The position numbers and the translations under genes were made by a program. From NCBI GenBank assembly GCA_030145205.1, contig JAQYVZ010000030.1:1-32705 (forward strand): a stretch of 32,705 bases of DNA. The letters are read 5' to 3'. The notes beneath the pieces are model-generated. The model saw only the letters and a program-made list of their open reading frames with translations, was not told the DNA's origin and did no database searches. Shown here in pieces: positions 3,281-25,723 of this stretch. How positions within the stretch are numbered: position 1 is the stretch's first letter; every line of letters starts with the position of its first letter. Source of the DNA: Desulfuromonadales bacterium. GTDB lineage: Bacteria > Desulfobacterota > Desulfuromonadia > Desulfuromonadales > BM103.

Positions 3281-3320
3281 CACCCTCACCCCAGCCCTCT
3301 CCCGTCAAGGGAGAGGGAGT
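3281..3320 (-). repeat. Dispersed palindromic repeat, unit A
   Basis: The core is a perfect 9-bp stem, CCCTCTCCC (3295-3303) with GGGAGAGGG (3309-3317), and a five-base loop. It is flanked by TCACCCTCACC. It is the reverse complement of the unit at 18029-18069, with a few changes. Confidence 0.85.
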
Positions 3321-3402
3321 CAAGCAGGAAAGTCGCTAAAAACCCCCATTCTCACTTAAAGAGAGATTAGCAGGGAACTTGGCAGGGAAGCTGCGAAGCA
3401 CG

Positions 3403-3440
3403 TCCCCTCTCCCCTGGCGGGAGAGGGTTAGGGTGAGGGG
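3403..3440 (-). repeat. Dispersed palindromic repeat, unit B
   Basis: The perfect stem CCCTCTCCC (3405-3413) and GGGAGAGGG (3419-3427), loop CTGGC, is followed by a TTAGGGTGAGGGG flank. The reverse complement matches the units at 18085-18120 and 19016-19068. Confidence 0.85.
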
Positions 3441-3506: not shown

Positions 3507-5006
3507 TTACGGCAACGGCGGGATCGGGTGCTGAATGCCATTCATTGCGCTGCCTTTCAGCATCGCCTTGATCTCTTCCGGCATCTTGCCGTCCCCTTTG
3601 GCCATGGCGCGCATCTGATCGCCGAGGTACGATTTCTCCACCAGGATCTTTAGCACCGCCTTCATGAACTCCTGCTTCCAGGGGGTGAGCTCATGGAGGT
3701 TCTGGAACTTGTGCATGTAGAATTTCTGCGCGGCCTTGCCCAGCTCCCGTTCCAACTCCTGCATGGTCATGTTGTTCGGCTTGATCACCGGCTCAACCAG
3801 GTTGTACTTGCGGTAATCCTTGGTTGCTACGTATTTCTCCAACTCCGGGTAGAGCTCGGCGTAGGGCCAGGGGGCGATGGCGAGGAAAAAGGCCATGTCG
3901 GGGTTGTAGTGTTTGGCCAGTTCGACTGTCTCCGCGATCGATTCCGGAGTGTCGTCCGGCATGCCAAGCACGAAGGAGGTCTCCGAGACGATGTCGGCGG
4001 CGTTGATGATGTCGATCGCCTGCTTCGACTGGCTCACCTCGGTCTCTTTATTGAACAGGTCGAGGGTCGCCTGATCGCCGGCCTCTACGCCGACGTAGAT
4101 ATGTTCGACTCCCGCCGCGCGGTACTTGTCCATGATGTCGGCATCACGCAGGATGTCATCCACGCGGGTCTCCATCAGCAGCTTGACCGGCACCTGACGG
4201 GCGATCATCAGGTCGAGAATCCCTTCCCAGCGTTCGCGGTTGTAAGTCGGCAGTTCGTCGGCCAGCATGGCCACTTCCACACCATAACGGCTGCTCAGTA
4301 GCTCCAGCTCGGCAACGAAGTTCTCCGGGCTGCGCCCTCGCCAGCTTTGTTCCCAGAAGAGTTGCTGCGAGCAGAAGGAGCATTGCGACATGCAGCCGCG
4401 CGCCGAGGAGACGATCGCCAGGCGGGCGTCGTTCTTGGCGAAATACTTGTAGATCGGCCACTCCACCAGGTCCCAGGCGGTCGGCAGGGCGTCCAGGTCG
4501 TGAATGTTGGGGCGTTTCGGGGTGGTGATGATCTGACCGTCGCAGGAAAACACCAAGCCGCGCACCTTGGCCGGGTCGTCGTTGGCGTTCAGGCAGTGCA
4601 GCAGCTCCGGCAGGGTGACTTCCCCCTCGCCGCGCACGATATAGTCGATGGTGGCCGCATCCGCCTGCAGCAGTTCGTCAAAGCAGAAGGTGGCGTGGAC
4701 GTTGCCGAGCACGGTCACCACCTCCGGGTTGACCTGCTTGGCCAGTTGCAACAGATCGACCGCATGGACAATGGATGCAGTGTAAGCCGTGGTCGCCACC
4801 ACGTCCGGGCGGAAGTCCTCGAGCCGCTGTTTGATCTCGTCCCAATCGTGCCAGAGCGCCATGGCGTCGTAGTAGTCGACCTCGAAGCCCGCCTCTCGCA
4901 GGGCGCCGGCAATATAGACAAATCCCACGTTCAGCCAGGTTCCGGCTGATTCAACCACGCCTGAATGGTAAGGCGGTGTAATGAGGGCGACGCGTTGCAG
5001 ATTCAT
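3507..5006 (-). CDS. BchE-like B12-binding radical SAM enzyme, module A
   Basis: A 499-residue cytoplasmic enzyme with an N-terminal cobalamin-binding Rossmann domain (about 1-170, with VRGEGE at 124-129) and a radical SAM barrel. The Fe4S4 ligands are C205, C209 and C212 (CMSQCSFC). Features I recall from BchE, the anaerobic Mg-protoporphyrin monomethyl ester cyclase, run along its whole length: an N-terminal PxYxxGxxEsAGxW, CSFCSQxxFW, DILRD, LFNKET, PWPYAEL, KYNLVEPVIKP and FYMxK. It is a clear paralogue of the protein at 15208-16692. It is the last gene of module A, 25 bases after the ccsA-like gene. No chlorophyll gene is nearby, so the substrate is unlikely to be Mg-protoporphyrin; a porphyrin or heme used by the neighbouring cytochrome system is an inference. 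Confidence 0.85.
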   Translation of the reverse strand: MNLQRVALITPPYHSGVVESAGTWLNVGFVYIAGALREAGFEVDYYDAMALWHDWDEIKQRLEDFRPDVVATTAYTASIVHAVDLLQLAKQVNPEVVTVLGNVHATFCFDELLQADAATIDYIVRGEGEVTLPELLHCLNANDDPAKVRGLVFSCDGQIITTPKRPNIHDLDALPTAWDLVEWPIYKYFAKNDARLAIVSSARGCMSQCSFCSQQLFWEQSWRGRSPENFVAELELLSSRYGVEVAMLADELPTYNRERWEGILDLMIARQVPVKLLMETRVDDILRDADIMDKYRAAGVEHIYVGVEAGDQATLDLFNKETEVSQSKQAIDIINAADIVSETSFVLGMPDDTPESIAETVELAKHYNPDMAFFLAIAPWPYAELYPELEKYVATKDYRKYNLVEPVIKPNNMTMQELERELGKAAQKFYMHKFQNLHELTPWKQEFMKAVLKILVEKSYLGDQMRAMAKGDGKMPEEIKAMLKGSAMNGIQHPIPPLP

Positions 5007-5031
5007 AGATGACTCGTTTTGTCCTTTTTGC

Positions 5032-5853
5032 CTATCCTACCATATATTGCGAGTGCTGGCTTTTCACGAAATAGGGGATGATGAAGAAAGCGACGATCGA
5101 GAACAGGAACGACAGGATGATGTACCAGGTCGAAAACGCCTTGCTCCACTTGAAGGTAATCCGGCCGTGCAGGTAGAGGCCGTACACCAGCCAGACGACC
5201 AGCGACCAGGTCTCGGTGGGATCCCACGACCAGTAGTGCCCCCACGAGTTGTTGGCCCAAATCGAACCGGTGATGATCATGATGGTCAAGGTGATGAAGC
5301 TGAAGGCGACCAGCCGGTAAGCGTAGTCGTCCAGCACATCTACCGATGGCAGCCTGGTCAGAAATCCTTGCTGCGGATCGCGGCGATCTTTCAGCAGCTG
5401 GGCGATCGACAGGGCAACCGCCACCAGCATGCCGGAGACGGTCAGCTTGGCAAAGACGATATGCACCAGCAGCCAGGCGCTCTGCAGGGTTGGCGACAAC
5501 GCCTTGAGTTCGGTCGAGCCCATCAAGGCGAAGCCCATCATCACGAAAGCGAGCGGCATGACAATGGCGCCGAGGTGGACGAACATGCGGATGCGCCACT
5601 GCAGCAGCAGGAAGAAGGTCACCGCAATCCAGACGTTCGACGAGAGAATCTCGTAGGTGCTCACATAGGGACCGTGGCCGGCCGCGCTCCAGCGCAAACC
5701 CAGCGAGATGCTGTGCAGGGCCAGACCAATCAGGGCCAGAATCGTCCCAAGCTTGCGCGACTTGTCGTGCGAGAAGGCGAGCGCGCTGATGTAGGCGATC
5801 GAACTGAAAATATAGCTGGCCAGGGCCAGCCAGAAAAAGAGGGCGGCGGTCAT
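5032..5853 (-). CDS. ccsA: CcsA/ResC-family heme-handling membrane protein, module A
   Basis: A 273-residue polytopic inner-membrane protein with about seven or eight helices. The tryptophan-rich heme-handling signature WGHYWSWDPTETWSLVVWLV lies at about 205-230 and the conserved HSISLGLRW segment near residue 47. In System II cytochrome c maturation, CcsA (ResC) and CcsB (ResB) carry heme across the membrane and attach it to CxxCH motifs. The ATG overlaps the upstream resB stop codon in an ATGA junction, so the two are translationally coupled and should form one complex. The length suits a separate CcsA rather than a fused CcsBA. It differs clearly from the module B homologue outside the WWD region. 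Confidence 0.9.
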   Translation of the reverse strand: MTAALFFWLALASYIFSSIAYISALAFSHDKSRKLGTILALIGLALHSISLGLRWSAAGHGPYVSTYEILSSNVWIAVTFFLLLQWRIRMFVHLGAIVMPLAFVMMGFALMGSTELKALSPTLQSAWLLVHIVFAKLTVSGMLVAVALSIAQLLKDRRDPQQGFLTRLPSVDVLDDYAYRLVAFSFITLTIMIITGSIWANNSWGHYWSWDPTETWSLVVWLVYGLYLHGRITFKWSKAFSTWYIILSFLFSIVAFFIIPYFVKSQHSQYMVG

Positions 5854-7286
5854 GCCTGCGGCCTTTCCTTTTGGAGTTCACGAATCTGTTCATCAAAACG
5901 TGCCCGGAACGAAGCTTTGTACTTTTCGGTGATCGCGCCGATCACGATCTTCTGTTGACCATCTTCCCGCAAAATCGACACCCAACAGCGCTCCGGCACC
6001 CAGAAATAGGTGATCAACAGACCGACCAGCAGCAGCGCGAAGCTGGCGAAAATCACCGGGACCCCCGCATCACGCACCACTAAATAAGAAGTGTACGGCT
6101 TCAGGCTGTCGAAGCGCAGTGTCAGGCCTTCGACGCTGAGAGTGCTGCCACCGAAAAGGACTCCCTGGAAGCGGCGGCCGTCCATCGATTCCGAGGTGAC
6201 CTTGATCAGGCTGACCGGGTGCTTCAGCGCCAGCTCTGCCAGTCCGTCGATCTGCTTGAGCTGGTCGGTGTGCAGCTCCATCAGGAGCGCCATTCGTACG
6301 CCGGGGGGGACCAGGCGGGTGGTCATCTTCAGTTGGCCAGGGTCTTTCGGCAGGACGAAGTGCGCGGCACCTTTTACTTCGGTGCCTCGATTGTCGGTGA
6401 TTGTCAGGCCGGCGACAAAGCCGTTGCGGCTGCCTTGGTAAATGGTTCGGCCGTGGGTTTTTAAGGGGTTGTTGACCGCGATCCGCTCCGCACCAAGCAG
6501 TTGCCCGCCTTTGTCATAAAGGCGCACTTCGCTGGCGCGCTGTCGGGCTTTACCCGGTTGCCAGTAGCTCAGGTCAGGGTGGTCCAGCTCCAGGGTGAAA
6601 TCGTCAGCGTCCCAGGTGAAAAGCGGTTCTGGCGAGTTGCGCTGGAACTTCTGCGTGCCCGCCTCAAACCGTTCCCCCGGAGTCAGCTCCAGGTAGCCGG
6701 CATGGCGGGTCGCGAAGCTGAGCAATGCGCCGAGCAGCACCACGAAGAAGGTCAGGTGAAAGAACAGCACGCCCCAGTGGCCCGCTTCGTGGCGGCTAGC
6801 GTAGAGGCGGATTTCCTGGTTGGTCTGCTCCGTTTTGACCCTGTAGCCGTTCTGTCTCAGGTGCTTGCAAAGTTGTGCGCTGTCCAGATCGGCAACGTCG
6901 AGCCGGGCGTGGCAGGGTAGACCCTCAATCTCATGTGCGCTGCGGAACGCCTGCAGGGCGTGCTGCTGGCGCTGCCCCTTGCGTAGCATCAGCACGCAGG
7001 CGGCACCCAGGTTGATCACCAGAAAGAGGACGGCAAGGAAAAAGGGGTTGTCCAGGTCGCCGGGGCTGCCGACGCCGATACGGTCGAGCCAGAGCAGGAA
7101 CCAGGGGGCAGTTTCGCCGTCGCCGGGCAGGGCCGCGCGTTGCGCAACGATAGCACGCTGCGCCACCAGCAGGGTGAGCAGAGCCATCAGGATGAAGGAG
7201 AGTTTAAGTCCGCCGAGGAATTCGAGCAGCTTCGTGCCGGAGAAGCCCGGCTGCTGTACGGCAGAAATGTTTTTCCGCAACAGCAT
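5850..7286 (-). CDS. resB: ResB/CcsB-family cytochrome c biogenesis protein, module A
   Basis: A 478-residue protein with the ResB layout. Two N-terminal membrane helices (about 26-45 and 80-103) come first. A third helix near 173-192 (HWGVLFFHLTFFVVLLGALLSF) carries conserved His residues. A large periplasmic domain (about 195-405) and a final helix (about 408-430, VIFASFALLLVGLLITYFW) follow. ResB works with CcsA as the System II synthetase that keeps the apocytochrome thiols and heme together during ligation. The gene lies 27 bases after the 7-heme cytochrome gene on the same strand and overlaps ccsA. An AGGAG site precedes the ATG by about seven bases. Confidence 0.9.
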   Translation of the reverse strand: MLLRKNISAVQQPGFSGTKLLEFLGGLKLSFILMALLTLLVAQRAIVAQRAALPGDGETAPWFLLWLDRIGVGSPGDLDNPFFLAVLFLVINLGAACVLMLRKGQRQQHALQAFRSAHEIEGLPCHARLDVADLDSAQLCKHLRQNGYRVKTEQTNQEIRLYASRHEAGHWGVLFFHLTFFVVLLGALLSFATRHAGYLELTPGERFEAGTQKFQRNSPEPLFTWDADDFTLELDHPDLSYWQPGKARQRASEVRLYDKGGQLLGAERIAVNNPLKTHGRTIYQGSRNGFVAGLTITDNRGTEVKGAAHFVLPKDPGQLKMTTRLVPPGVRMALLMELHTDQLKQIDGLAELALKHPVSLIKVTSESMDGRRFQGVLFGGSTLSVEGLTLRFDSLKPYTSYLVVRDAGVPVIFASFALLLVGLLITYFWVPERCWVSILREDGQQKIVIGAITEKYKASFRARFDEQIRELQKERPQA

Positions 7287-7313
7287 GTTGGGAACTCCTG
7301 TCGGTTGAAGCGC

Positions 7314-8582
7314 TTAGGTGCAGTTGTCGCCGGTGGCGGTCAGGTCGTTGTCGTGGGCGTTTTCTTGCCAGTTACCCTCGGTCCAGCTGTCGATGCCTTC
7401 CTGGAAGTAAGTCGGGTCCAGTAGGTGTTTGCGGGTTTCGGAGCCGTGTGGGTTTGCCATGTGGCAGTCCTGGCACATTTCGCCGTCATGTTTTCGAATA
7501 TGCAGTTCTTCGGGAATACCATTGTCTGTTCCGTCTGCATCTTCGCCATCAAAACCGCTGCCTTGAAAGGTTTGTGGGTGGCAGTTGAAGCACCAGACGT
7601 TGGTGGTTTCACTGGAGCTGTTGGAGTTCGGAATTGCGGAAGTTGCACTCCAGGTCGTATAGGGGCTGCCGCTAGGCACCTTGAGGACATTGTTGTAATT
7701 GGAGCCGTGCACCCCTTCAGGCCCGACTCCGGCATCGCTGGGACCGTGGCAGTCGGAGCAGAGCATCTTGGCAGTACGCAGAACCGCATTAGATGCGCCG
7801 GAGTAGCGGGTCATCATGACGCCGACATAGGTACTGTTGAAGGTGGCGGTTGATGCAATTTTGCGAGTGTAGCCGGTTTTGTCGCCTTCGACGTAGTGGT
7901 AGCTGTCGTTGTTCATGTTGAATTCATCAGCCGTTGTTCTGGAGTTTGCAGTCCAGGAGCTGTGACACTTGAAACAGACTTTGTACTGCTCGAAGGTGCT
8001 GGTGACCGTTACAAAGGTGTAAGTGATGGTTCCACCTGCGACGGGGGTGCTCGGATTCACTCCGGTCGCGCCGATAATTGGCCCTTTCGCGGCAGAGGTT
8101 GCGTCATATCCCGGAGCAACGATCGCATTTGCCACGTGTGGGTTGTGACAGTCAGTACACTCTGCATGGCGGCTGGTGCTGGTAAAAGCAGAAGAGGTGC
8201 TCTCATGGGCGCGATGGACACCATCAGTCGATGTGAGTCGAGGGTGCTTGTTGGTCTTACTGAATTGAGCAGCAATGTCGGTCGAGGCCGGACTGCCGTC
8301 ATGGCAGCTCAGGCAGAGATCCTGCTCCATGTCAAAGCCGAGGTAGGCGTCCGGGCCGCCAGTCGGGGTCGGCTCGGAGCCATCCAGACTGGCATGTTGC
8401 TCATGACAATGGCCGCAGTTGCCGGTGGCGTAGTTCGTGTTGCCGCGATCCACTCCATCGGTGGTGTCGCCATGCGAGGAATTGGCATAGAGGCCGGCCA
8501 TGGTCGGAGCCGCAGTCAGAAAGACAAAAAACAGCGCCCCATAAAAGATAAGCAAACGGAAAAGTCGTTTATTCAGTGTCAT
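7314..8582 (-). CDS. Secreted seven-heme c-type cytochrome, module A
   Basis: A 422-residue protein with a signal peptide (about 1-29, ending TMA) and seven CxxCH heme-binding motifs at C56, C90, C142, C203, C275, C331 and C370. Additional His residues (for example HNPH and VHGSNY) could be axial ligands. It would sit in the periplasm or outside the cell and carry electrons, probably in respiration to extracellular or metal acceptors. The first 95 residues are strongly similar to the module B cytochrome (NYATGNCxHCHEQHASL, EPTPTGGPD, CHDGSP). It heads the module A operon. The product ends abruptly in GDNCT, one Cys short of a further heme motif. No clear ribosome-binding site precedes the ATG at 8582, so the start is less certain than the frame. 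Confidence 0.9.
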   Translation of the reverse strand: MTLNKRLFRLLIFYGALFFVFLTAAPTMAGLYANSSHGDTTDGVDRGNTNYATGNCGHCHEQHASLDGSEPTPTGGPDAYLGFDMEQDLCLSCHDGSPASTDIAAQFSKTNKHPRLTSTDGVHRAHESTSSAFTSTSRHAECTDCHNPHVANAIVAPGYDATSAAKGPIIGATGVNPSTPVAGGTITYTFVTVTSTFEQYKVCFKCHSSWTANSRTTADEFNMNNDSYHYVEGDKTGYTRKIASTATFNSTYVGVMMTRYSGASNAVLRTAKMLCSDCHGPSDAGVGPEGVHGSNYNNVLKVPSGSPYTTWSATSAIPNSNSSSETTNVWCFNCHPQTFQGSGFDGEDADGTDNGIPEELHIRKHDGEMCQDCHMANPHGSETRKHLLDPTYFQEGIDSWTEGNWQENAHDNDLTATGDNCT

Positions 8583-8677
8583 AAGAAGGAGACCGGCAAT
8601 AAGTCGACAAAATATCCATGAGTCGACAACAAAACAAATTAACCCTGGTATGAAAGTGCTCGGTGATTAGCGAATTA

Positions 8678-8707
8678 ATTGTATATGCTTTTTATCAAGA
8701 ATATAAA
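8678..8707 (-). promoter_or_regulatory. Candidate promoter for the module A operon
   Basis: On the minus strand TTTATA (8707-8702, 4/6) and TACAAT (8683-8678, 5/6) are 18 bases apart in an AT-rich tract about 95 bases before the cytochrome start codon. This is assigned by consensus only. Confidence 0.35.
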
Positions 8708-8857
8708 CAGCTTAAGCAAATTGCATGCCTAAGGTTTAACGGGGGGTGTTTTGATTAAGATGGTCGGATATGTCAACCTCTGCGGTGATAGAAAGAAACG
8801 GCTATAGGAAAGGCTCGTCCGGTTTGATCCTTTATGGGAGGCGCATGCTTTTCACTT

Positions 8858-8887
8858 TTTCCATCCATGTAGCGGACATGCTATAGT
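8858..8887 (+). promoter_or_regulatory. Candidate promoter for the thioesterase gene
   Basis: TTTCCA (8858-8863, 4/6) and TATAGT (8882-8887, 5/6) are separated by 18 bases and lie 35 bases before the start codon, leaving a short leader with a CTGGAG ribosome-binding site. This is assigned by consensus only. Confidence 0.4.
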
Positions 8888-8922
8888 TCGGGCGGTTTAT
8901 TTATCATCAATCTGGAGCGCGC

Positions 8923-9426
8923 ATGAAGTACACCATCACGAATCATCAGAACATCTCTAAAAACTGCCTGGTCTGCGGTGTGGAAAACGAGTTCGGCCTG
9001 AAGACCCGCTTCTATGAAACCACCGATAAGGAAGTGGTTGCCCTGTTTCAGCCGATCAAGCAACACCAGAGTTATCCGGACATCACCCATGGCGGTATCT
9101 CGGCGGCGATTCTCGACGAAGTGATTGGTCGGGCGATCATGGCCTTTCACGATGAAAAGTCCTTCGGGGTGACCATCGAGCTGAAAATGCGCTATCGCAA
9201 GCCGGTTCCCTATGGTGTGCAACTCAAGGCAGTCGGCCGGATCACCAACGACAATGGTCGGATGTTCGAAGGCACCGGCGAACTCTATCTGCCGAACGGC
9301 GAGGTGGCGGTCTCTGCTGAAGGGAAGTACCTACGCCGTCGTTTGGAGCAGTTCACCAACAGTGAATTTGTTGACAGCGAGTGGTGGGCGCCAGAGGATG
9401 AACTGCCGGAGGAGATCTCCATCTAA
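8923..9426 (+). CDS. PaaI-family hotdog-fold thioesterase
   Basis: A 167-residue cytoplasmic protein with the N-terminal NCLVCGxEN-GL segment common in this subgroup. The hotdog signature THGGISAAILDEVIGRA (about 55-71) includes the HGG turn and acidic D65 that usually activate water for thioester hydrolysis. The later strand region (ELKMRYRKPVP) is typical of 4HBT domains. It probably hydrolyses an acyl-CoA or acyl-ACP thioester; the substrate cannot be told. A CTGGAG site lies just upstream of the ATG. It is followed after 18 bases by the Mut7-C gene, so the two may be co-transcribed. It lies between the two cytochrome modules but shows no obvious functional tie to them. Confidence 0.85.
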   Translation: MKYTITNHQNISKNCLVCGVENEFGLKTRFYETTDKEVVALFQPIKQHQSYPDITHGGISAAILDEVIGRAIMAFHDEKSFGVTIELKMRYRKPVPYGVQLKAVGRITNDNGRMFEGTGELYLPNGEVAVSAEGKYLRRRLEQFTNSEFVDSEWWAPEDELPEEISI

Positions 9427-9444
9427 AACCTGTCGGGAGACGCC

Positions 9445-10203
9445 GTGGACCATTCCGCCCACTTCCAGTTTTTCGGACGTTTGCAGAACCTGCTGGTTCG
9501 ACCGCACCAGGCTGGCGACGTACTCTATACGTTCACTGAGTACCCGGCGGTCAAAGATGCGATCGAAGCGCTTGGTATCCCGCATACGGAGGTGGCGGCG
9601 CTGGCCATCAATGGAACGAGCGTCTCGTTTGCCTACCCTTTGCAGCACACTGATCGAGTTGAGGTTTATCCGCACGCCTGGCCGCTTACTCTCGCTTCGC
9701 TGGTCAGTTTGACGCCACCACTGCCCGATCCTCCCCGTTTTATCCTCGACGTCCATCTCGGCAAGCTAGCCCGTCGTCTGCGCATGCTCGGTTTCGACTG
9801 CCTGTATCGCAATGATTATGAAGACGCCGAGATTGTGGAGATCGCCTGCCGGGACGACCGCATCGTACTGACTCGCGATCGCGGTCTGCTCAAACGGAAG
9901 CGGGTGGTTTGGGGCTGCCTGCTTGATGGCGACCGATTTCCGGAGCAGTTGCGTGAACTTGAAGCGCGTTACGGACTGCTGGCGGATATCTCCCCCTTGG
10001 GGCGCTGTCCGAATTGTAACGGATTGCTGCAACCGGTGGCAAAGGGGGAGATTCTTGAACGGTTGGAGCCGAAGACCCGTCTCTATTATGATGCGTTCCG
10101 AAGGTGCATCGACTGCGCTCAAATTTACTGGGAGGGAACTCATGCGGAGAAGATTCTTGATTGGGTTCGTGGACTTTGTGCCGCCCGTATGCTAGAAAAG
10201 TAG
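9445..10203 (+). CDS. Ubiquitin-like plus Mut7-C RNase-domain protein
   Basis: A 252-residue two-domain protein. Residues about 1-85 resemble the Ub-Mut7C ubiquitin-like fold. Residues about 97-250 form the Mut7-C domain, with the PIN-like acidic site around D102 (FILDVHLGKLARRLRMLGFD), the DDRIVLTRDRGLLKR segment and a zinc ribbon of C188/C191 and C221/C224. Mut7-C domains are predicted RNases related to the exonuclease domain of animal Mut7; the bacterial role is not established. Translation starts at GTG 9445 after a GGGAGA site. The product is complete and of normal family length. Confidence 0.85.
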   Translation: MDHSAHFQFFGRLQNLLVRPHQAGDVLYTFTEYPAVKDAIEALGIPHTEVAALAINGTSVSFAYPLQHTDRVEVYPHAWPLTLASLVSLTPPLPDPPRFILDVHLGKLARRLRMLGFDCLYRNDYEDAEIVEIACRDDRIVLTRDRGLLKRKRVVWGCLLDGDRFPEQLRELEARYGLLADISPLGRCPNCNGLLQPVAKGEILERLEPKTRLYYDAFRRCIDCAQIYWEGTHAEKILDWVRGLCAARMLEK

Positions 10204-10388
10204 TCAAAAGCCGAAGGGCTCCAGTGATATGGCGATGAAGATTCTGTAATCTTTCTATAGGGTTTGCTTTTCTGGTGAAATTCGTTATGGTATTTAAATT
10301 GCAACAAGTCACTTTCCAGTTGAGTTCAGTCTTGGTAGCATGAGCGGGGGCATGTGACAATTTTGCAGGTCATGAGGTGTGCTTTTTT

Positions 10389-11603
10389 ATGAAGGTTTTT
10401 TTTGCAGCGCTGGTTTTGAGCAGCCTTCTTTGCATTTTCCTGCCACCGTTCGCCTGGGCTGGAGATTATGCCGATTCAGCGCATGGTGATACCTCCATTG
10501 GGGTGGATCGCTCCACCATCGACACTGATTTTTCGAATTACGCTACGGGCAACTGCGCCCATTGCCATGAGCAGCATGCGTCACTGGGTGGGACTGAACC
10601 GACCCCGACCGGTGGACCGGATGACTACCTGCTGTTCGATGTGACCAGCAGTAACACCTTCTGCAATACCTGCCATGATGGCAGCCCGGTAACTGGCGAT
10701 GTCGCCAGCCAGACCACGAAGACCAGTGGTCATGATCCCGCGACAACCAAAACCCCCGGTAATATTAATGCCGTTTGCATGGATTGCCATGATCCCCATG
10801 CCGCGACAGAGGTTGCTCACGTCGAGGCGACTGATGGCAATACTGCTTCGGGAGTGTTGAAAAACGTGGCCGGGGTGCAAGCGACATGGTCTGCACCATC
10901 AAACCCAAGTAATGGTACAGAAACTCTGTCTGCGCCAAGTTATACAGCAACCACCGCCGTGACAAAAGAGTACGAACTCTGTCTGAAATGTCATTCTTCT
11001 TACGCTTGGGGAGCGACCCCGCCGACTGGCTGGACGGATCAAGGCAAGGAGTTTAACCCCCATAACTTCTCCTTTCATCCGGTGACTGAGAGCTCTGCCG
11101 GTCAGCAATGGAACAACACCTTCATTCGCGCTAACCAGACTGCGGCCATGACTGGCAACTGGGCTTTGCCCGCCAACTTGGATGCCCGCATGTATTGCAG
11201 CGATTGTCATGCCGACAATACTGCTGGAGCCCCGAAGGGCCCGCATGGCTCAAATGCTGTTTATATTCTGCGAGCCGTCGGCCCAGGCACTACCTACAAC
11301 AATCTCTGTCTGTTGTGTCATCGGCCTGAGGCTGGCGCGGCTACGTCAGCATTCGGCAACCATACAACGGCAAAGCACCAGTACCCAAGTAATGCTTTGG
11401 GGTGTCTTGGTTGCCATGCTGGGAATATTGGTGTCGGTGGTCGTACCGGAAATGTCCATGGCACGAATTACCGCTGGGCGACGAGTGGCCAGCCTGCGAT
11501 AAAATTTTTGGTAGGGGGCTATATCACTACGTTAACCTCAAATAGCTGTGGTGCTGCAAAAGTCACAGGTTGCGGTGGGCATCCTGGTGGGAAGGGCTAC
11601 TAA
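10389..11603 (+). CDS. Secreted seven-heme c-type cytochrome, module B
   Basis: A 404-residue protein with a signal peptide (about 1-24, ending AWA) and seven CxxCH motifs at C56, C92, C130, C198, C270, C307 and C339. It is a paralogue of the module A cytochrome: the first heme starts at residue 56 in both, and the NYATGNC-HCHEQHASL and EPTPTGGPD stretches are shared. The C-terminus adds an unpaired arrangement, C387 with C395-G-G-H398, that is not a normal heme motif. I prefer the ATG at 10389 because it gives a clean signal peptide; an in-frame GTG at 10377 overlaps the only upstream AGGT site. The gene leads the module B operon, with resB 28 bases downstream. It probably acts in extracytoplasmic electron transfer. 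Confidence 0.9.
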   Translation: MKVFFAALVLSSLLCIFLPPFAWAGDYADSAHGDTSIGVDRSTIDTDFSNYATGNCAHCHEQHASLGGTEPTPTGGPDDYLLFDVTSSNTFCNTCHDGSPVTGDVASQTTKTSGHDPATTKTPGNINAVCMDCHDPHAATEVAHVEATDGNTASGVLKNVAGVQATWSAPSNPSNGTETLSAPSYTATTAVTKEYELCLKCHSSYAWGATPPTGWTDQGKEFNPHNFSFHPVTESSAGQQWNNTFIRANQTAAMTGNWALPANLDARMYCSDCHADNTAGAPKGPHGSNAVYILRAVGPGTTYNNLCLLCHRPEAGAATSAFGNHTTAKHQYPSNALGCLGCHAGNIGVGGRTGNVHGTNYRWATSGQPAIKFLVGGYITTLTSNSCGAAKVTGCGGHPGGKGY

Positions 11604-11631
11604 GCAAACTGTTGATCTTGAGGAAACTTTT

Positions 11632-13023
11632 TTGTTTAGTTTTTTGACCTCACGCCGCATTGTCTCCATTCTGTTGGGAGCTTTCATCGTTCTGTTGGTT
11701 TTGGGAGCCCTGATCCCTCAGGAGAATTCCTCTCCGCTGTTTGAAGTCAACGTATGGCAGAACAATCACCCATTATTGGCTAAAGTTACTCAGGTCGTTG
11801 GCGGAACCAAGCTGTACACGAGTTATCCTTTCCTCGTTGTCTCCGGACTCCTCTTACTGTCTACAGCAATGTGTACTGTCCAGAGAATCGGGCTGCTGAG
11901 AAAAGAGGAATTGCCCTCGATTGATACGGACTTTTCTGTAGAGCTGTCTCCGCAGGCTTTAGAAGAGGGCTATGCTGAAGTCGTGACATATGTTCGTCAT
12001 TGTTTACGCAAGCATGGATGTTTTGCCAAGACTGAGTCCTTCCCCGTGGAAGCGATTGTTGTCGTTCGAAAGGGTGGTCTGGGCCGCTGGGGGTCTGTCC
12101 TGTTCCATTTCAGTTTCCTGATTCTTCTGATTGGAGCTCTCGCGAGTGTCTGGACACGATCGGAAGGGAGCTTCATCTTGACTGAAGGGCAGTCATTTCG
12201 GGGGACGCCGGCCGAGTTTGTCTCTCGGCAGCCAGCGGCCTTACCATGGTACGGTGTTGGCGATTTCGAGATCGTCCTGCAACAGTTCGTGCCCCAAGAA
12301 GGCCAGCCACCGACTTATGCAAGCAAATTGATTTTTAGTCAGGAGGGTAAAGAAGCCGAACGTCTGGATGTTCGTACGTTTCAAGCAGGATCGTATGCTG
12401 GACGGACCTTCTACCAGAAAGAACATGGTTTCTCTCCTCGGTTTCTCGTCAAAACAGCAGCCGGACAGGATCTTTTTGACGGCTTCGTCGCCTTGGCCTC
12501 AAGCTTTTCAGACGATGAGGTTCGCTACGAGAATGTTTTTTCCATTGTTGAGGGCAGTTTGAAAATTGAAGGACAATTGTTTCCGGATGCAGTCCAAAAA
12601 GCGGGCCAATGGCGTTCCCTGTCTCCCAAGCCGAACCGCCCGGTTTTCCTGGCCCGTATTGAACAAAGGGGCGTCCCGGTTTTTGAAGGGCCGATCCCGT
12701 TAGGCGAAGCCCTGGAGCTCGAAGGTCTGCAAATCAGTTTCACGGAACTGCGCTACTGGAGCGGACTGCAGATGGTGACGGACCTCGGAGTGCCGATCCT
12801 GTATGCGGGCTTCTTCTTGGGCTGTCTCGGTTTGGTGCTACGGACTCTGATCTCCAGTGAAACCTTTTGGCTGAAAGCGGTGCCGTCGGCGGAGACAACA
12901 TCCTTGGTTCTCTACGGGGCCGCCGAAAGAGATCAGGCGCTGTTTGCGGAAAAATTCCAAGTCCTGGTCGACGAGCTGCGTGCCGGGTTACGTGAAATGA
13001 AAGGTGATACGATTCGTGAATGA
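11632..13023 (+). CDS. resB: ResB/CcsB-family cytochrome c biogenesis protein, module B
   Basis: A 463-residue ResB homologue. The first helix (about 10-28, ending GALIPQE) and the second (about 67-85) match the ResB N-terminus. The segment GLGRWGSVLFHFSFLILLIGALASVW is the conserved third helix with its His. A periplasmic domain and a final helix (VPILYAGFFLGCLGLVL) follow. I choose the TTG at 11632: it has a GAGGAA site six bases upstream and directly precedes the conserved start. Longer in-frame starts (11548) would lie inside the cytochrome gene. The stop region overlaps the next gene, ccsA. With CcsA it should form a heme-attachment complex, plausibly dedicated to the cytochrome encoded just upstream. 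Confidence 0.88.
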   Translation: MFSFLTSRRIVSILLGAFIVLLVLGALIPQENSSPLFEVNVWQNNHPLLAKVTQVVGGTKLYTSYPFLVVSGLLLLSTAMCTVQRIGLLRKEELPSIDTDFSVELSPQALEEGYAEVVTYVRHCLRKHGCFAKTESFPVEAIVVVRKGGLGRWGSVLFHFSFLILLIGALASVWTRSEGSFILTEGQSFRGTPAEFVSRQPAALPWYGVGDFEIVLQQFVPQEGQPPTYASKLIFSQEGKEAERLDVRTFQAGSYAGRTFYQKEHGFSPRFLVKTAAGQDLFDGFVALASSFSDDEVRYENVFSIVEGSLKIEGQLFPDAVQKAGQWRSLSPKPNRPVFLARIEQRGVPVFEGPIPLGEALELEGLQISFTELRYWSGLQMVTDLGVPILYAGFFLGCLGLVLRTLISSETFWLKAVPSAETTSLVLYGAAERDQALFAEKFQVLVDELRAGLREMKGDTIRE

Positions 13024-13819
13024 CACCGCTCTGTTCTGGATCGCCCTGGCAGGCTACTTGGTGGCTATTATTCTGCTGCTGGTGAGTTTAAAGAAGGACG
13101 AAGCTCTGGCCGCGAAGGGGGTCTGGGTCGTCTGCGTCGCTCTGGTCGTGCATACCGTTTCACTGGGTCTGCGCTGGCAGGCGGCGGGGCACCTGCCGGG
13201 CAACGACCTCTACGAGTTGAACTCGGTCGGTGGTTGGTTGACTGTGGCAATTTACCTCTGGATTCAGTACCAGTACCCGAAATTCCGAGGACTGGGCGCG
13301 GTGATTTTGCTGCTGACCATTGGCATGATGCTGTACGGGGTCAGCAAACCGCATGCGATTGCGCCCCTTTCCGATGAGTACCAGAGCGGCTGGTTCTTCG
13401 TACATATCCTCTCGGCATTTTACGCTTATGGTTGCTACGTGATCGCGACCTCGGCCGGACTGCTCTACCTGGTGCGTCACTACCGCGGCGGTCCGTTCTC
13501 CGAGCGACTGCCTTCCCAGGATCTGCTCGAAAATCTCAATGGCCGGCTGATTGGCTACGGTTTCTGCAGCCATGCTATCATGTTAACGTCCGGTGCGATC
13601 TGGGCCAACAGTGCCTGGGGCCGTTACTGGGGATGGGATCCGGTGGAAACCTGGTCGCTGATTACCTGGCTGGTCTACGCGTTCCACCTGCATGCTCGCA
13701 CTTTCCTGCACTGGAAAGGCCAGCGTCTGGCCTGGATCTCGGTGGTGGCGCTGATCACCATCGTATTTACCTTCTGGGGGGTGCCGCACCTGCCCACTCA
13801 GCCTGGACAACCTGGATAA
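13016..13819 (+). CDS. ccsA: CcsA/ResC-family heme-handling membrane protein, module B
   Basis: About 267 residues and eight membrane helices, with the heme-handling signature WGRYWGWDPVETWSLITWLV and the conserved HTVSLGLRWQAAGHLP segment. The partner is the ResB encoded directly upstream, whose last eight bases overlap this gene. Two GTG starts are possible. The one at 13016 is spaced about nine bases from AAGGTG and is preferred; the one at 13004 lies within that site. The reaction is System II heme delivery and ligation at the outer face of the inner membrane. It is co-directional with all the module B genes. Confidence 0.9.
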   Translation: MNDTALFWIALAGYLVAIILLLVSLKKDEALAAKGVWVVCVALVVHTVSLGLRWQAAGHLPGNDLYELNSVGGWLTVAIYLWIQYQYPKFRGLGAVILLLTIGMMLYGVSKPHAIAPLSDEYQSGWFFVHILSAFYAYGCYVIATSAGLLYLVRHYRGGPFSERLPSQDLLENLNGRLIGYGFCSHAIMLTSGAIWANSAWGRYWGWDPVETWSLITWLVYAFHLHARTFLHWKGQRLAWISVVALITIVFTFWGVPHLPTQPGQPG

Positions 13820-14215
13820 ATGATGACAGTCGATCTGCTAATTATTCTGAATAACTTTTTTCACGATCTGGCTTCGGCCATGTGGTTTTGTGGCACTCTG
13901 ACTCTGTTGGCGCTGTTGCGCGCCGGCAAACAGGACGGTCATCCCGAAGTGGCCGCTTTCTCCCGCCAACTGTTTCGCCGGGTGTCCAAAGTCACCAATG
14001 TCAGTCTGGCCGCGGTGGTGCTGGGCGGTGTGGTGCGGGCCATTAATTACCAGGAATATGAATGGTTGCCAGCCCTGGGTCGTGATCAAGTGGGCCTGCT
14101 GGTGGTCAAGCACATCCTGCTGACCGGCATCGTGGTTGGCGGCATCTACTTGCAGGTGCGCATGGCGCGACAGTTCAGGCAGGCTCAGGATGCGGAGCGG
14201 ACATCGGTATCATGA
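13820..14215 (+). CDS. Small four-helix membrane protein, CopD/HemJ-like
   Basis: A 131-residue integral membrane protein with about three or four helices. The first helix contains FHDLASAMWFCG and a later one VVKHILLTGIVVGG, so a His in the first helix and a Lys-His pair in a late one are conserved-looking polar residues inside the membrane. This pattern resembles the CopD/DUF2269 and HemJ (protoporphyrinogen oxidase) group of heme-binding membrane proteins, but the similarity is loose and I would not assign a reaction. It starts directly after the ccsA stop and overlaps the next gene by four bases (ATGA), so it belongs to the module B operon. A role in heme handling or porphyrin oxidation is a guess from the fold and neighbours. 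Confidence 0.75.
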   Translation: MMTVDLLIILNNFFHDLASAMWFCGTLTLLALLRAGKQDGHPEVAAFSRQLFRRVSKVTNVSLAAVVLGGVVRAINYQEYEWLPALGRDQVGLLVVKHILLTGIVVGGIYLQVRMARQFRQAQDAERTSVS

Positions 14216-15207
14216 AACGTTCCCGGTTGTTCCTCCAACTGTTGATTCTTGCCGGCTGCGGGCTGATAGTCTATCTGCTGTTCCATCCGGAACTGTTTGT
14301 TGCTCCATCCGGCGATCATGATCAGAACCTGCTGACGGCAAACGAGGCTCGCGTTGCGCAGCCCGCGCCAGAGTTAACGGTCCGCCCGACCTACCGCTCC
14401 AGCATCGACTGCGGCCAACGTACTCCGCAGGCACTGGCGTTGGATGGCGAACAGCTGGTGGTCGCCTATCGTCGCCTCAACCTTGTCGATTTTTTTGCCG
14501 CCAGTGGGGAGCGTTTGGCCTTTTTCGACCCCTTCCCGAGGGGGGAGATGAACATCTCGTCTTTGTACGTTGACGATCAGGGCCAGCTTTACATCACCGA
14601 CTTCGCCAACCGCTCTCTGCTGATGTTCGACGCGCAGCGCAATTTCCGGCACTTTTTTCCCTCTGGACAGGGCACGGCAGCCGCCCGGCCACAACTGCCG
14701 GTCAGTCTCCGCGGGAGCGACAAGTTGCTTGTGGTTGCCGACCTGGGGGATAATACAGTGAAGAGCTACCTGCCGCAGGGAGAATATGTGCTCTCGCTGT
14801 CGCAGGAAGCGTCTGGGACGCCGGAACCCTGGCATCCGTTTGACGTCGCCTTGACCGATGATGGCCGCATTCTGGTCAGCGACATTCGGGGGAAGAAGAT
14901 CCTGGCGTTTTCCTGTGCCGGTAAATTTGCCTACGCTTTTGCCGACCCGGACAAAGGGGACGGCCCGCAAAAACCTGGCTCCATGGCGATCGACAGCCTG
15001 GGTCGGGTCCACCTGGTTGACAGCGGCAGCCACCAGATTTTCGTCTACGATAACTTCGGCCGTTTCTTGTTTACTTATGGGCGGCTAGGCTCTATCGGCA
15101 CGGGCATGCGGGTGCCGACCGCGATCGCCATCGACACCGAAAAGAATCTCGTCTACATCGCTGACAGCGGCAACCGTCAGATTGATGTCTGGAGTTTACC
15201 TGAATAA
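14212..15207 (+). CDS. Membrane-anchored NHL-repeat beta-propeller protein
   Basis: A 331-residue protein with one N-terminal helix (about 7-25) followed by a periplasmic domain of about five or six NHL-type repeats. These are recognisable by motifs such as GQLYITDFANRSLLMFD, GRILVSDIRGKKILAF, GRVHLVDSGSHQIFVYD and NLVYIADSGNRQIDVW. NHL propellers are binding scaffolds; in metal-respiring bacteria they often accompany cytochrome genes. The ATG overlaps the stop of the upstream membrane gene, and the radical SAM gene begins immediately after its TAA, so it is embedded in the module B operon. Module A lacks a counterpart. A role in holding the cytochrome or its maturation complex is inference. 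Confidence 0.85.
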   Translation: MKRSRLFLQLLILAGCGLIVYLLFHPELFVAPSGDHDQNLLTANEARVAQPAPELTVRPTYRSSIDCGQRTPQALALDGEQLVVAYRRLNLVDFFAASGERLAFFDPFPRGEMNISSLYVDDQGQLYITDFANRSLLMFDAQRNFRHFFPSGQGTAAARPQLPVSLRGSDKLLVVADLGDNTVKSYLPQGEYVLSLSQEASGTPEPWHPFDVALTDDGRILVSDIRGKKILAFSCAGKFAYAFADPDKGDGPQKPGSMAIDSLGRVHLVDSGSHQIFVYDNFGRFLFTYGRLGSIGTGMRVPTAIAIDTEKNLVYIADSGNRQIDVWSLPE

Positions 15208-16692
15208 ATGCTGAAAAAAATCATGTTGATAACCCCACCGTATCACTGTGGGGTCGTTGAGTCGGCCGGACGTTGGCCGAATCTGGGCTTTATCTACTTG
15301 GCGGGCGAGCTGCGCGCGGCCGGTTTCGAGGTGGTGATCTACGATGCCATGTCGCTCTGGCACGAGTATCCGCAGATCGAGGAGCGTATCCGTGAGGAAC
15401 AGCCGGACGTGGTGGCGACGACGGCGTTTACCGCGACCATCAACGATGCCCTGAAAATCCTAACAATGGCGAAGCGTATCGACCCGCAGGTCACCACTCT
15501 GCTCGGCGGCATTCACCCGACCTTCTGCTACCAGGACATTCTGCAGGAATCACACGACACCGTCGATTTTTGCATCATCGGCGAAGGGGAGCGGACGGCA
15601 CCTGAGCTGATGTCTGCCCTGGTGTCGGGGGGCGACCTGCGCCAGGTTGCCGGTCTTGCCTATTGGCAGGATAACGATGTGGTCGTCACTGCACCGCGGC
15701 CGCTGATCGAAGATCTCGACAGCCTGCGACCTGCCTGGGACATGGTCGACTGGAAAGACTATCCCCTCTACTTTATCGAGGAGACCAACGTCGCCCTGGT
15801 GAATTCGTCACGCGGCTGCCTGCATGAGTGTTCCTTCTGCTCGCAACACAAGTTCTGGAACGGTTCCTACCGGGAACGTGACGCGGAGAAGTTCGTCGCG
15901 GAGATTGCCCACCTGAAACGGGAATACGGCGTCAACGCCTTCTTCGTGGCGGATGAATATCCGACTTACACCGAGGAGCGCTGGGTGAAGATCCTCGATC
16001 TGCTGATCGAAGCGGATCTCGGCGTGCATATCCTGATGGAGACCTGTGTCGGCGATATCCTGCGCGACAAAGACATCCTCTGGAAATACCGCAAGGCAGG
16101 CATCCTGTTCATCTACATGGGTGTAGAGGCGACCAACGAAAAACGGCTGGCAGAGTTCAAAAAGGACATCAAGTTTGCCGAATCGAAAGAGGCGATCCGC
16201 CTGATCAAAGAGGCCGGCATGATCTCGGAGAGTTCGGTGATCCTGGGAATGCCGGACGAAACGCCGGAGACGATTAAGGAAACTTTCGCGCTGGCCCAGG
16301 AGTATGATTCCGACTTTATGCACTTTTTGATGATCGCCCCCTGGCCCTATGCTGACCTCTACGAGGAGTTAAAACCGTATATTGCGGAGACTGATTTCTC
16401 CAAGTACAATCTGGTTGAACCGGTGATTGCTCCCCGCTTCATGACGAGGGAGGAGGTCTTCAAGGAAGTGCTCAACTGCTACAAGAACTACTACATGAGG
16501 AAACTGCCAGAATGGTACCTGATGAAGGGCAATGACCTGAAACGGCACGCCCTGCTGACCGGGATGAAGGCGGTGATGGAGAACTCCTTCCTGAAAGATC
16601 ACATGACCGGATTGGGAAAGATGCCGAAGACGGTTGAAAAGTACCTCGGGTACTTTAAAGGATCTGCCACCAAAAAGGATTCTGCCGCTTAG
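15208..16692 (+). CDS. BchE-like B12-binding radical SAM enzyme, module B
   Basis: A 494-residue paralogue of the module A enzyme, sharing ITPPYHxGVVESAG, GFEV-YDAM-LWH, PDVVATTA and APWPYA. The N-terminal cobalamin-binding fold contains LLGGIHPTF and IGEGE; the radical SAM cluster ligands are C204, C208 and C211 (CLHECSFC). BchE-type marks retained include CSFCSQ, DILRD, PWPYADL, KYNLVEPVI and YYMRK; the NKET motif seen in module A is changed here. The ATG follows the previous stop without a gap. Such enzymes use cobalamin plus S-adenosylmethionine for oxidative or methylation chemistry; the BchE resemblance and the heme-attachment neighbours point to a tetrapyrrole substrate, which is inference. 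Confidence 0.85.
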   Translation: MLKKIMLITPPYHCGVVESAGRWPNLGFIYLAGELRAAGFEVVIYDAMSLWHEYPQIEERIREEQPDVVATTAFTATINDALKILTMAKRIDPQVTTLLGGIHPTFCYQDILQESHDTVDFCIIGEGERTAPELMSALVSGGDLRQVAGLAYWQDNDVVVTAPRPLIEDLDSLRPAWDMVDWKDYPLYFIEETNVALVNSSRGCLHECSFCSQHKFWNGSYRERDAEKFVAEIAHLKREYGVNAFFVADEYPTYTEERWVKILDLLIEADLGVHILMETCVGDILRDKDILWKYRKAGILFIYMGVEATNEKRLAEFKKDIKFAESKEAIRLIKEAGMISESSVILGMPDETPETIKETFALAQEYDSDFMHFLMIAPWPYADLYEELKPYIAETDFSKYNLVEPVIAPRFMTREEVFKEVLNCYKNYYMRKLPEWYLMKGNDLKRHALLTGMKAVMENSFLKDHMTGLGKMPKTVEKYLGYFKGSATKKDSAA

Positions 16693-16703
16693 GAAATCTG
16701 CCC

Positions 16704-17075
16704 ATGTCCGGATTGATGACCGAAATCGATAGCGCCCGTCTGAGCTTCCTGCTGGAGCAGAAGGTGACGGTTGTCGATATTCGTCGCCCTGAGGAATGGC
16801 GCACCACAGGTGTCGTGGCCGGCAGCTTGCTGCTGACCTTTTACGATGATCAAGGCAATTGTGACCTGCAGGCCTGGCTGACCACCATGCAACCCCTGGC
16901 GCCGCCAGACAAACCGCTGATCCTGATCTGCCGCACCGGCTACCGGACCGGCCTGATTGGCGAACTGCTGCTCGAACAGAGCAGCTATCAACAGTTGTAC
17001 AACGTGACCGACGGTATTCTCGGCTGGATCGCCGACGGCTATCCGGCTCAACCTTGGTCCAATTCCCCTGAATAG
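16704..17075 (+). CDS. Single-domain rhodanese-like protein
   Basis: A 123-residue cytoplasmic protein with the rhodanese fold signature: VVDIRRPEEW near residue 23, the persulfide-forming active site Cys76 in the loop CRTGYR, and the closing DGILGWIADGYP. Such enzymes move sulfane sulfur to an acceptor such as cyanide, a thiol or a partner protein. It lies 11 bases after the radical SAM gene on the same strand and is probably the last gene of the module B operon. Sulfur supply or thiol handling for the cytochrome system is possible but not shown. Confidence 0.85.
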   Translation: MSGLMTEIDSARLSFLLEQKVTVVDIRRPEEWRTTGVVAGSLLLTFYDDQGNCDLQAWLTTMQPLAPPDKPLILICRTGYRTGLIGELLLEQSSYQQLYNVTDGILGWIADGYPAQPWSNSPE

Positions 17076-24883: not shown

Positions 24884-25234
24884 GTTTCTGTTGTGTCTGT
24901 TGCGCGTTTTTTCAGAAAAAGCGTTGAGCAGAGACGTCAGTGAGATTGACGTGATTGTTGCAAGAACGGCCACCCCTATCGGGTGGCCGTTGTCTTTCAG
25001 GCTTTGGGCGTAAGAAATCGTAAGCCTGTGTCAATAAATTCATTCAACAATCATTAAGTAGGCTGTTTTGTCAGGTGCCTTGCGTTGTTTCAGTATGGCT
25101 CAATTTGTCGCTGTTGCGTTGTCCCCGTATGTGCGAGACATGGCTCCTCGCTTTTTTGTGTAAACGTTTCCCGCACTTCTTCGTCTAGGAAGGTATGCCC
25201 CGACAAAATCAATGTAACTGAGAGGAGAATATCA
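24884..25234. other. Gene-free stretch upstream of the Gly-rich secreted protein
   Basis: It contains the hairpin at 24965-24991 and then about 240 bases of leader before the next start codon. I see no well-supported coding frame or recognised riboswitch. The promoter of the next gene should lie here, but no element matches well enough to call. Confidence 0.55.
24965..24991 (+). terminator. Hairpin terminator
   Basis: A perfect 11-bp stem, AACGGCCACCC (24965-24975) and GGGTGGCCGTT (24981-24991), with a five-base loop, followed by a modest T-rich GTCTTTC. It probably ends the transcript of the hemerythrin-like pair and the small ORF. Confidence 0.75.
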
Positions 25235-25723
25235 ATGAGGAAAACTTGGCTTGTACTTTTGTGCGGCGCTCTGCTTTTGGCGGCTATGGCTGCTCCTGCT
25301 TTTGCTGGTAATGGGAATGGTTCTGAAGGAAGCAACGGCGCTGGTGGCTCAGGCGAAAGCGGCGAAGGCGGTGATGGCGGCGCTGGTGGCTCAGGCGAAG
25401 GCGGCGAAAGCGGCGAAGGCGGCGAAGGCGGTGGTGATGGCGGCGAAGGCGGCGAAAGCGGTGGTGATGGCGGTAACGCAGGTGAAGCCAACGGCGCCGG
25501 CGGTGATAGCCCGGGTGTTGGTGATGGAACAGCTGACGGTTTGAGCCCTGCCGGCATGGAACAGCCCCAGACCCGTACGCGTGAAATGGTTCGCACAAGC
25601 TATGAACTGAATGAAACTGCGACCCGTACGCAAGCGCATATTGCGGAGCAGGCTCCTGAAGATCCTGTAGAAGAACCCACTGAACCCACTGAACCTACTG
25701 AACCTACTGAACCTACTGAGTAG
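25235..25723 (+). CDS. Secreted Gly/Glu-rich low-complexity protein with EPT repeats
   Basis: A 162-residue protein with a clear signal peptide (about 1-24, ending AFA). Residues about 25-100 are almost only Gly, Glu, Ser, Asp and Ala in GEGG/GDGG units. A short ordinary segment follows (about 105-145, with REMVRTSYELNETATRTQAH). The C-terminus is five EPT units. The ATG at 25235 follows AGGAG by seven bases; longer frames upstream have no support. The mature protein is acidic and likely disordered, perhaps a surface or matrix component; I recognise no family. A strong terminator follows, so it is probably a single-gene transcript. The repeats make length variation between strains likely. Confidence 0.8.
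   Translation: MRKTWLVLLCGALLLAAMAAPAFAGNGNGSEGSNGAGGSGESGEGGDGGAGGSGEGGESGEGGEGGGDGGEGGESGGDGGNAGEANGAGGDSPGVGDGTADGLSPAGMEQPQTRTREMVRTSYELNETATRTQAHIAEQAPEDPVEEPTEPTEPTEPTEPTE
25673..25717 (+). repeat. Five tandem 9-base units encoding EPT
   Basis: Five copies of GAACC(C/T)ACT run to the stop codon. The first two copies have C and the last three T at the sixth base, which suggests stepwise duplication of single units. Confidence 0.9.

Follow-up and report, generated by a model that had tools for sequence, protein, structure and literature searches.

Why should one stretch of bacterial DNA carry two sets of genes that each join a multiheme cytochrome c to its own heme-attachment proteins and to a relative of a chlorophyll-pathway enzyme? 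The question is raised by a Desulfuromonadales bacterium (GCA_030145205.1, contig JAQYVZ010000030.1, positions 1–32,705 of the forward strand; this whole stretch of 32,705 nucleotides is called the window), in which two operons on opposite strands, named here module A (minus) and module B (plus), encode a seven-heme c-type cytochrome, ResB, CcsA and a B12-binding radical S-adenosylmethionine (SAM) enzyme related to BchE. ResB and CcsA are cytochrome c synthetases. Our leading explanation, to which we give somewhat less than an even chance, is that each module is a cytochrome-maturation cassette, in which the enzyme modifies a heme or porphyrin and a dedicated ResB–CcsA pair attaches the product to the cytochrome of that module.

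The genes of module A run from 8582 down to 3507 in the order cytochrome, resB, ccsA and radical SAM gene; resB and ccsA overlap by 4 bases, and the two remaining gaps are 25 and 27 bases long. In module B the order is cytochrome, resB, ccsA, a CopD-like gene, an NHL gene and the radical SAM gene (to 16692), followed by a rhodanese-like open reading frame (ORF); ccsA and the radical SAM gene are accordingly separated by two genes in module B and by none in module A. Neighbouring genes of module B overlap, touch or are separated by no more than 28 bases, given a start of resB at TTG 11632, which is preceded by GAGGA and is likelier than the opening of the ORF at 11548. Pfam backed the gene names in both modules, the CopD match being below threshold and the rhodanese being named by eye. 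The gene order described for both strands in the initial annotation was confirmed by ORFs and Pfam, with two extra genes in module B, and its claims that the radical SAM enzymes are paralogues and that the cytochromes are most alike at the N terminus were also borne out, at identities of 48% over 490 columns and 38% over 321 columns, respectively. The corresponding values were 35% for CcsA and 26% over 348 for ResB. Because the same gene set recurs in several phyla, the grouping is more than chance.

Linkage was counted on loci from a scan of named genomes that returned 218 relatives of the enzyme, the best 80 of the 218 loci being kept; by record title they derive from Desulfuromonadales/Geobacteraceae, Nitrospirota, Aminicenantes, Planctomycetota, Actinomycetota, Bacteroidota and others. 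With one locus (L062) left out for having no unbroken ORF of the family, 79 of the 80 were counted, and an upstream stretch of 7 kb or more was available for 52 of these. Profiles for resB, ccsA, copD and NHL were grown from the window proteins on the same loci, and single-sequence searches were added for resB. A resB and/or ccsA gene was present on the same strand within ca. 10 kb of the enzyme gene at 39 of the 52 loci, both genes at 32, any of resB, ccsA and the CopD-like gene at 42, and a protein with at least four CXXCH motifs, on either strand, at 35. None of five control radical SAM loci of the window's own genome (0/5) had resB, ccsA, copD, NHL or such a cytochrome; the controls are radical SAM matches to the BchE model, not all of them shown to bind B12, searched by the four grown profiles only and with an upstream reach of ca. 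4 kb in one and ca. 8 kb in another. The co-occurrence of the radical SAM family with ResB/CcsA, which the initial annotation had proposed to check, was therefore found, and unlinked homologues, which it took to speak against its view, were encountered in a minority only (at 10 of the 52 loci, neither resB nor ccsA nor copD was in view).

Many Geobacteraceae and Nitrospirota loci are extended clusters, which also hold a second B12/radical SAM protein, a LuxE-like ligase, PMT-type glycosyltransferases and an uncharacterised protein of about 175–190 residues. Such clusters of Geobacteraceae/Desulfuromonadales and Nitrospirota (L039, L044, L054, L067, L077, L081, L088, L093, L095) have the look of a longer pathway, the gene for the LuxE-like acyl ligase sometimes lying on the opposite strand. 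Four actinomycete enzymes (L058, L073, L080, L086) form a clade with support 100; neither resB nor ccsA nor copD is in view at their loci, which carry a protein with 5 to 21 CXXCH motifs at 6.7–8.9 kb. This clade may represent a diverged use of the enzyme.

Both enzymes are close relatives of BchE, a porphyrin enzyme, and belong to a separate clade. Each combines a B12-binding (PF02310) with a radical SAM (PF04055) domain and has a CX3CX2C core within FCSQxxFW, the radical SAM cysteines Cys204, Cys208 and Cys211 being invariant in 40 sequences. Against the NCBIfam BchE model TIGR02026, enzymes A and B scored 416 and 439 bits, respectively, below the curated cut-off of 481, and the next-best family, HpnR, gave 164 and 150 bits. 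The module B enzyme was 37–40% identical over 92–93% to six plasmid-borne proteins, five of them annotated bchE, and several of these six genes adjoin other photosynthesis genes. On the basis of an alignment of 59 family rows, the six plasmid-borne BchE and 13 other radical SAM proteins, 25 positions were diagnostic of BchE, being fixed in 95% or more of the family rows and in 6/6 BchE, and in at most 3/13 of the other proteins (among them, in module B enzyme numbering, Tyr12, Glu18, Trp23, Met48, Trp182, Gln213, Glu341, Trp379, Asn401 and Lys432). The trees of the enzyme, CcsA and ResB were quick ones with support by the Shimodaira–Hasegawa-like approximate likelihood ratio test (SH-aLRT) only. 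In the enzyme tree, BchE formed one clade (100) and the enzyme family a separate one (92); the branch uniting the two against the outgroup was weak (67), and the outgroup contains long branches that come together. The AlphaFold2 model of the module B enzyme (mean predicted local distance difference test score, pLDDT, 89.6) matched best the radical SAM dehydratase AprD4 and the B12 enzymes CysS, MgmA, OxsB and TsrM (Z 32.5–26.4), and BchE was not named among 13 PDB sequence matches of this enzyme.

The modules have separate histories. In the enzyme tree, module A fell into a 12-row clade of Geobacteraceae and one further genome (100), with 76% identity to Geobacter argillaceus, and module B grouped with two near relatives and then with Aminicenantes, Planctomycetota and a Desulfobacterales metagenome-assembled genome (11 rows, 99). 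For CcsA, module B once more clustered with its two near relatives (100). Module A belonged to a clade of 23 rows that included Geobacteraceae, Nitrospirota and others (98), the closest single row being from Nitrospirota at 45%. From these placements it follows that two anciently separate versions stand at one locus, and the duplication and divergence put forward in the initial annotation, taken as a local event, is rejected on both trees. As to co-divergence of the families, which it had suggested testing, the enzyme and CcsA trees agreed on the relatives of module B and kept module A apart, and the ResB tree, which set module B beside one of its two relatives (97), was less clear for module A. 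There module A formed a long branch, placed together with two Nitrospirota rows and the ordinary ResB of the genome (88), and a long-branch warning was given.

In total, the genome has four ResB and five CcsA-type proteins, of which two ResB and three CcsA-type genes lie outside the modules; the module copies score lower on Pfam ResB/CcsA, and the three other CcsA-type proteins share a branch away from them (99). As a System II test, PF05140 and PF01578 were over cut-off and resB and ccsA adjacent in both modules, and both CcsA missed the cut-off of the CcsB equivalog TIGR03144 (table). The two CcsA sequences read WGHYWSWDPTETWSL and WGRYWGWDPVETWSL at what we take to be the WWD-type motif.

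Each cytochrome has seven CXXCH motifs, which hold 7/7 of its CH dipeptides; neither contains CXXCK, nor CX10–18CH as a site of the MccA/SirA CX15CH type. In cytochromes encoded just upstream of resB, the last CXXCH is often followed by a stretch with a PHG or HG-x-W-like motif, and the protein closes with a tail that holds additional Cys and His. A C-x(1,2)-H tail was found in 14 of 22 cytochromes at most 300 bp upstream of resB versus 5 of 42 others (Fisher p 3e-5), four of these five sitting in resB-bearing loci, and in 4 of 12 cytochromes found only within 1 kb of the enzyme. All 22 resB-adjacent proteins had at least one extra tail Cys, 18 had at least two, and 16 had an aromatic residue within the last three. 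Left out of this count were L115, L117, L119 and L120 (treated as duplicates), L101–L114 (stretches of the own genome and controls), repeated tails and proteins whose 3′ end was incomplete. Counting tails with at least two extra Cys among the final 35 residues discriminated poorly (27/33 linked versus 20/53 others), because CX4CH ends count too and several of the others lie near the enzyme, and this criterion was rejected. Elsewhere in the own genome, where 30 of the 41 hits to a single heme-motif family were viewed, 11 other complete C termini were without the tail, three of them carrying other extra cysteines. Three multiheme cytochromes of this genome (L169, L170 and L172 on contigs C102, C150 and C308) have a near-identical extra-Cys ending, CDAGTA.ADCGCFSCHT, which differs from the tail under study and which we presume to resemble nanowire-type cytochromes.

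Enzyme-proximal cytochromes were the source of tail profiles A3 and A4, which contain the module A and module B sequences, respectively; G000 and G139 (A3) and G000 and G028 (A4) match by construction. The module A cytochrome matched A3 with an E-value of 3.5e-6, over 7359–7490 only and missing the last 15 residues. Among 147 related genomes, the type-2 profile matched in three, all with the enzyme and two being profile sources, and the type-2 tail of G142 (E 1.3e-5) lies ca. 468 kb from its enzyme genes; the type-1 profile matched in six, three with the enzyme and two being profile sources. The match in G011 was without the tail end. In 199 genomes of the class that were at least 90% complete, the enzyme was present in 66 and the type-1 tail in 27, with both in 22, tail only in 5, enzyme only in 44 and neither in 128 (Fisher p 3.7e-8, or 2.1e-5 minus seven possible profile-source genomes, kinship uncorrected). 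For 13/37 of the type-1 matches, the contig also carried an enzyme gene no more than 20 kb away.

What the data establish is a pair of operons, two enzymes closely akin to BchE but of separate origin, a conserved linkage and a frequent odd tail. In the cassette that we propose, the cytoplasmic BchE-related enzyme would alter a side chain of heme or a late porphyrin precursor, most likely, by analogy with BchE, through oxidation or cyclisation at a propionate. The cognate, divergent ResB–CcsA synthetase would export the modified tetrapyrrole and fix it to the multiheme cytochrome. One selected CXXCH could receive it, or else a special site, for which the C-terminal Cys/His tail is one candidate; the CopD-like protein would be a membrane helper. 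A more specific version, in which a BchE-adjacent branch in several phyla makes a new heme (e.g. with an oxidised or cyclised propionate) that a private ResB–CcsA fixes partly at a C-terminal C-X(n)-C-X(1–2)-H, we consider unlikely, and slightly more so given that the full tail form occurs in only 9 of the 22 resB-adjacent cytochromes.

A number of points weigh against the cassette. That heme or a porphyrin is the substrate, as well as the reaction chemistry, the attachment site and any role of the tail, we infer. Both enzymes stay below the BchE cut-off, and the family has 24 further fixed positions where BchE most commonly carries another residue. The substrate of BchE is a Mg-porphyrin ester, while the search of this genome found no BchM (best 43 bits, cut-off 158.9), which makes a mere repeat of the chlorophyll reaction less likely; chlorophyll synthesis was rejected as the role on this result. 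Besides the ten loci with none of resB, ccsA and copD, 13 of the 39 resB/ccsA-linked loci show no protein with at least four CXXCH motifs in view, most of the 13 being of the extended-cluster kind; given this count, the self-contained system that the initial annotation saw in each module is no more than a possibility. The full tail, C-X(3–9)-C-X(1–2)-H, is present in the module B cytochrome and missing from that of module A, which has one tail Cys; structure prediction for the cytochrome was unusable (pLDDT 30). As for co-occurrence, 44 of the 66 enzyme genomes gave no type-1 tail match, and 5 of the 27 tail genomes (G072, G121, G164, G169 and G211) are without the enzyme, the contig stopping right after resB–ccsA in G072 and no resB or ccsA being nearby in G121. 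The test itself is partly circular, because the profiles came from cytochromes chosen near the enzyme, and the uncorrected kinship and the ResB placement of module A add to these points.

Had the enzyme instead evolved to modify the apocytochrome peptide in the cytoplasm before export, for instance at a residue of the C-terminal tail, with ResB–CcsA attaching ordinary heme, the Cys/His tail would be a possible substrate and the strong fold match to MgmA would fit. Models of ApyD (137 and 127 bits for A and B) and of a ribosomally synthesised and post-translationally modified peptide (RiPP) C-methyltransferase (108 and 103 bits) also match, less well than BchE, whose model scores ca. three times higher. 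The 25 BchE-diagnostic residues are retained, the tail is variable, and 13 of the 39 linked loci have no protein of at least four CXXCH motifs in view; we regard this explanation as rather unlikely, and peptide-modifying families were rejected as the identity of the enzyme on their weaker scores. A service in heme supply, whether through a different, anaerobic variant of one step in ordinary heme synthesis or as a heme carrier to ResB–CcsA, would suit the kinship to a porphyrin enzyme, and the CopD-like family points the same way: His15, Asp16, Arg73 and Lys97 are invariant in 30/30 aligned members, and the His, Arg and Lys presumably recall HemJ. However, the CopD Pfam family matched 19 of 30 CopD-like relatives and HemJ was absent among the 25 listed of 33 Pfam families, the three invariant radical SAM cysteines would be dispensable for a mere carrier, and the enzyme is patchy (66/199 genomes of the class, the others of which presumably make heme too). 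Heme supply appears distinctly unlikely on this account, core heme synthesis being disfavoured by the patchy occurrence.

The extended clusters of Geobacteraceae and Nitrospirota, with their second B12/radical SAM protein and LuxE-like ligase, could also mean that ResB–CcsA and the enzyme make and export a separate tetrapyrrole or other cofactor, the cytochrome being just one client or neighbour, and the 13 linked loci without a cytochrome of at least four CXXCH motifs, mostly of this extended kind, are in line with that. Cytochrome, resB, ccsA and enzyme nevertheless occur together in several phyla, and ResB–CcsA are established cytochrome c synthetases, which makes the separate cofactor improbable in our estimate. 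Very improbable is a loose cluster of unrelated redox genes in which the enzyme has no maturation role: the ten loci without resB, ccsA or copD would agree with it, but the linkage at 39 of 52 loci from several phyla against 0/5 controls, and the broad agreement of the enzyme and CcsA trees for the two modules, would not.

Compared with known systems, the parts are of known kinds and the combination is, as far as the literature was searched, undescribed: in the open-licence literature, at the level of titles and abstract openings, no description was found of a BchE relative combined with ResB/CcsA or cytochromes. According to an excerpt of one paper (PMC13142503), BchE carries out a six-electron oxidation of a porphyrin side chain with SAM and cobalamin, and is poorly soluble, its chemistry being hard to study. 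The window's enzymes share with BchE both domains, the cysteine core within its FCSQxxFW context, the 25 diagnostic residues and, for module B, the sequence identity given above; they differ in the sub-cut-off score, the 24 positions, the genome search that found no BchM, and the linkage to resB/ccsA and often a cytochrome. Dedicated synthetases for odd heme sites are described in excerpted text of another paper (PMC6976685), namely Wolinella NrfI (CXXCK) and CcsA1 (CX15CH) and Shewanella SirEFG. As in those cases, judged from the same excerpt (PMC6976685), an additional heme-attachment set is encoded with a multiheme cytochrome, whereas here CXXCK and CX15CH are lacking from the two cytochromes, that of module B has a C-terminal C-X7-C-X2-H tail, and a BchE-related enzyme is added. 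With the MccA/SirA octaheme sulfite reductases the modules have in common seven CXXCH and an own synthetase, and in module B also a candidate odd site; unlike them, there is no CX15CH-type site, and the module B cytochrome had no sequence match in the PDB. Ordinary System II is resembled in the ResB and CcsA domains and the WWD-type motif, and departed from in Pfam scores lower than those of the genome's other copies, the missed TIGR03144 cut-off and the separate CcsA branch; ResB of module A is not clearly apart from its ordinary counterpart.

The cassettes may thus point to an undescribed modified heme. If so, the heme of cytochromes c could have been altered chemically before it is attached, and the way in which sequence is used to infer the redox properties of many-heme electron conduits would change. 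The covalently bound tetrapyrrole cofactors would gain a new member, and the chlorophyll ring-closing enzyme would be tied by descent to cytochrome maturation. A widespread BchE relative would gain a testable function that bears on the origin of the anaerobic cyclase of the chlorophyll pathway, and further enzymes would become available for a chemistry hampered by the poor solubility of BchE, as stated in the excerpt cited above (PMC13142503).

Table. Features of modules A and B and of the ORF behind module B, with window positions
Feature	Position	Strand	Evidence
Module A 7-heme c-type cytochrome	7314..8582	-	7 CXXCH; signal peptide by eye; PF09699 over cut-off
Module A cytochrome C-terminal tail	7314..7394	-	one Cys outside CXXCH; departs from fuller tail form
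Module A ResB	5850..7286	-	PF05140, 133 bits
Module A CcsA, WWD-type motif	5032..5853	-	PF01578, 131 bits; TIGR03144, 178 bits (cut-off 187.6)
Module A BchE-related B12/radical SAM enzyme	3507..5006	-	PF02310, PF04055; TIGR02026, 416 bits; tree
Module B 7-heme c-type cytochrome	10377..11603	+	first ATG 10389; 7 CXXCH; PF09699 over cut-off
Module B cytochrome C-terminal tail, SNSC-X7-CGGHPGGKGY	11538..11603	+	Cys391, Cys399, His402; tail model A4, E 2.1e-16
Module B ResB	11632..13023	+	PF05140, 138 bits; likelier start TTG 11632
Module B CcsA, WWD-type motif	13004..13819	+	PF01578, 122 bits; TIGR03144, 170.8 bits (cut-off 187.6)
Module B CopD-like small membrane protein	13820..14215	+	PF05425, 22.6 bits, below cut-off 32.1
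Module B NHL-repeat protein	14212..15207	+	PF01436
Module B BchE-related B12/radical SAM enzyme	15208..16692	+	PF02310, PF04055; TIGR02026, 439 bits; AlphaFold2 pLDDT 89.6
Rhodanese-like ORF behind module B	16704..17075	+	named by eye

A search with the rhodanese-like ORF over 100 loci matched only two fetched copies of its own gene, and the ORF may not be part of module B. A longer mechanical ORF at 5003–5896 (minus strand), which overlaps ccsA, was rejected as spurious, and a promoter scan found sites no more numerous than in shuffles. Between the modules, on the plus strand, lie an ORF for a thioesterase-like protein (8923–9426) and an ORF resembling Mut7-C RNase (9445–10203), both named by eye. 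Just past the end of module A, at 3290–3440, imperfect inverted repeats (CCCTCACCCCAGCCCTCTCCC versus GGGAGAGGGTTAGGGTGAGGGGG, by eye) have the look of repetitive extragenic palindromic (REP) elements or miniature inverted-repeat transposable elements (MITE). Further along the window, a low-complexity ORF at 25085–25723 has a Gly/Glu/Ser-rich middle and a (TEP)n end.

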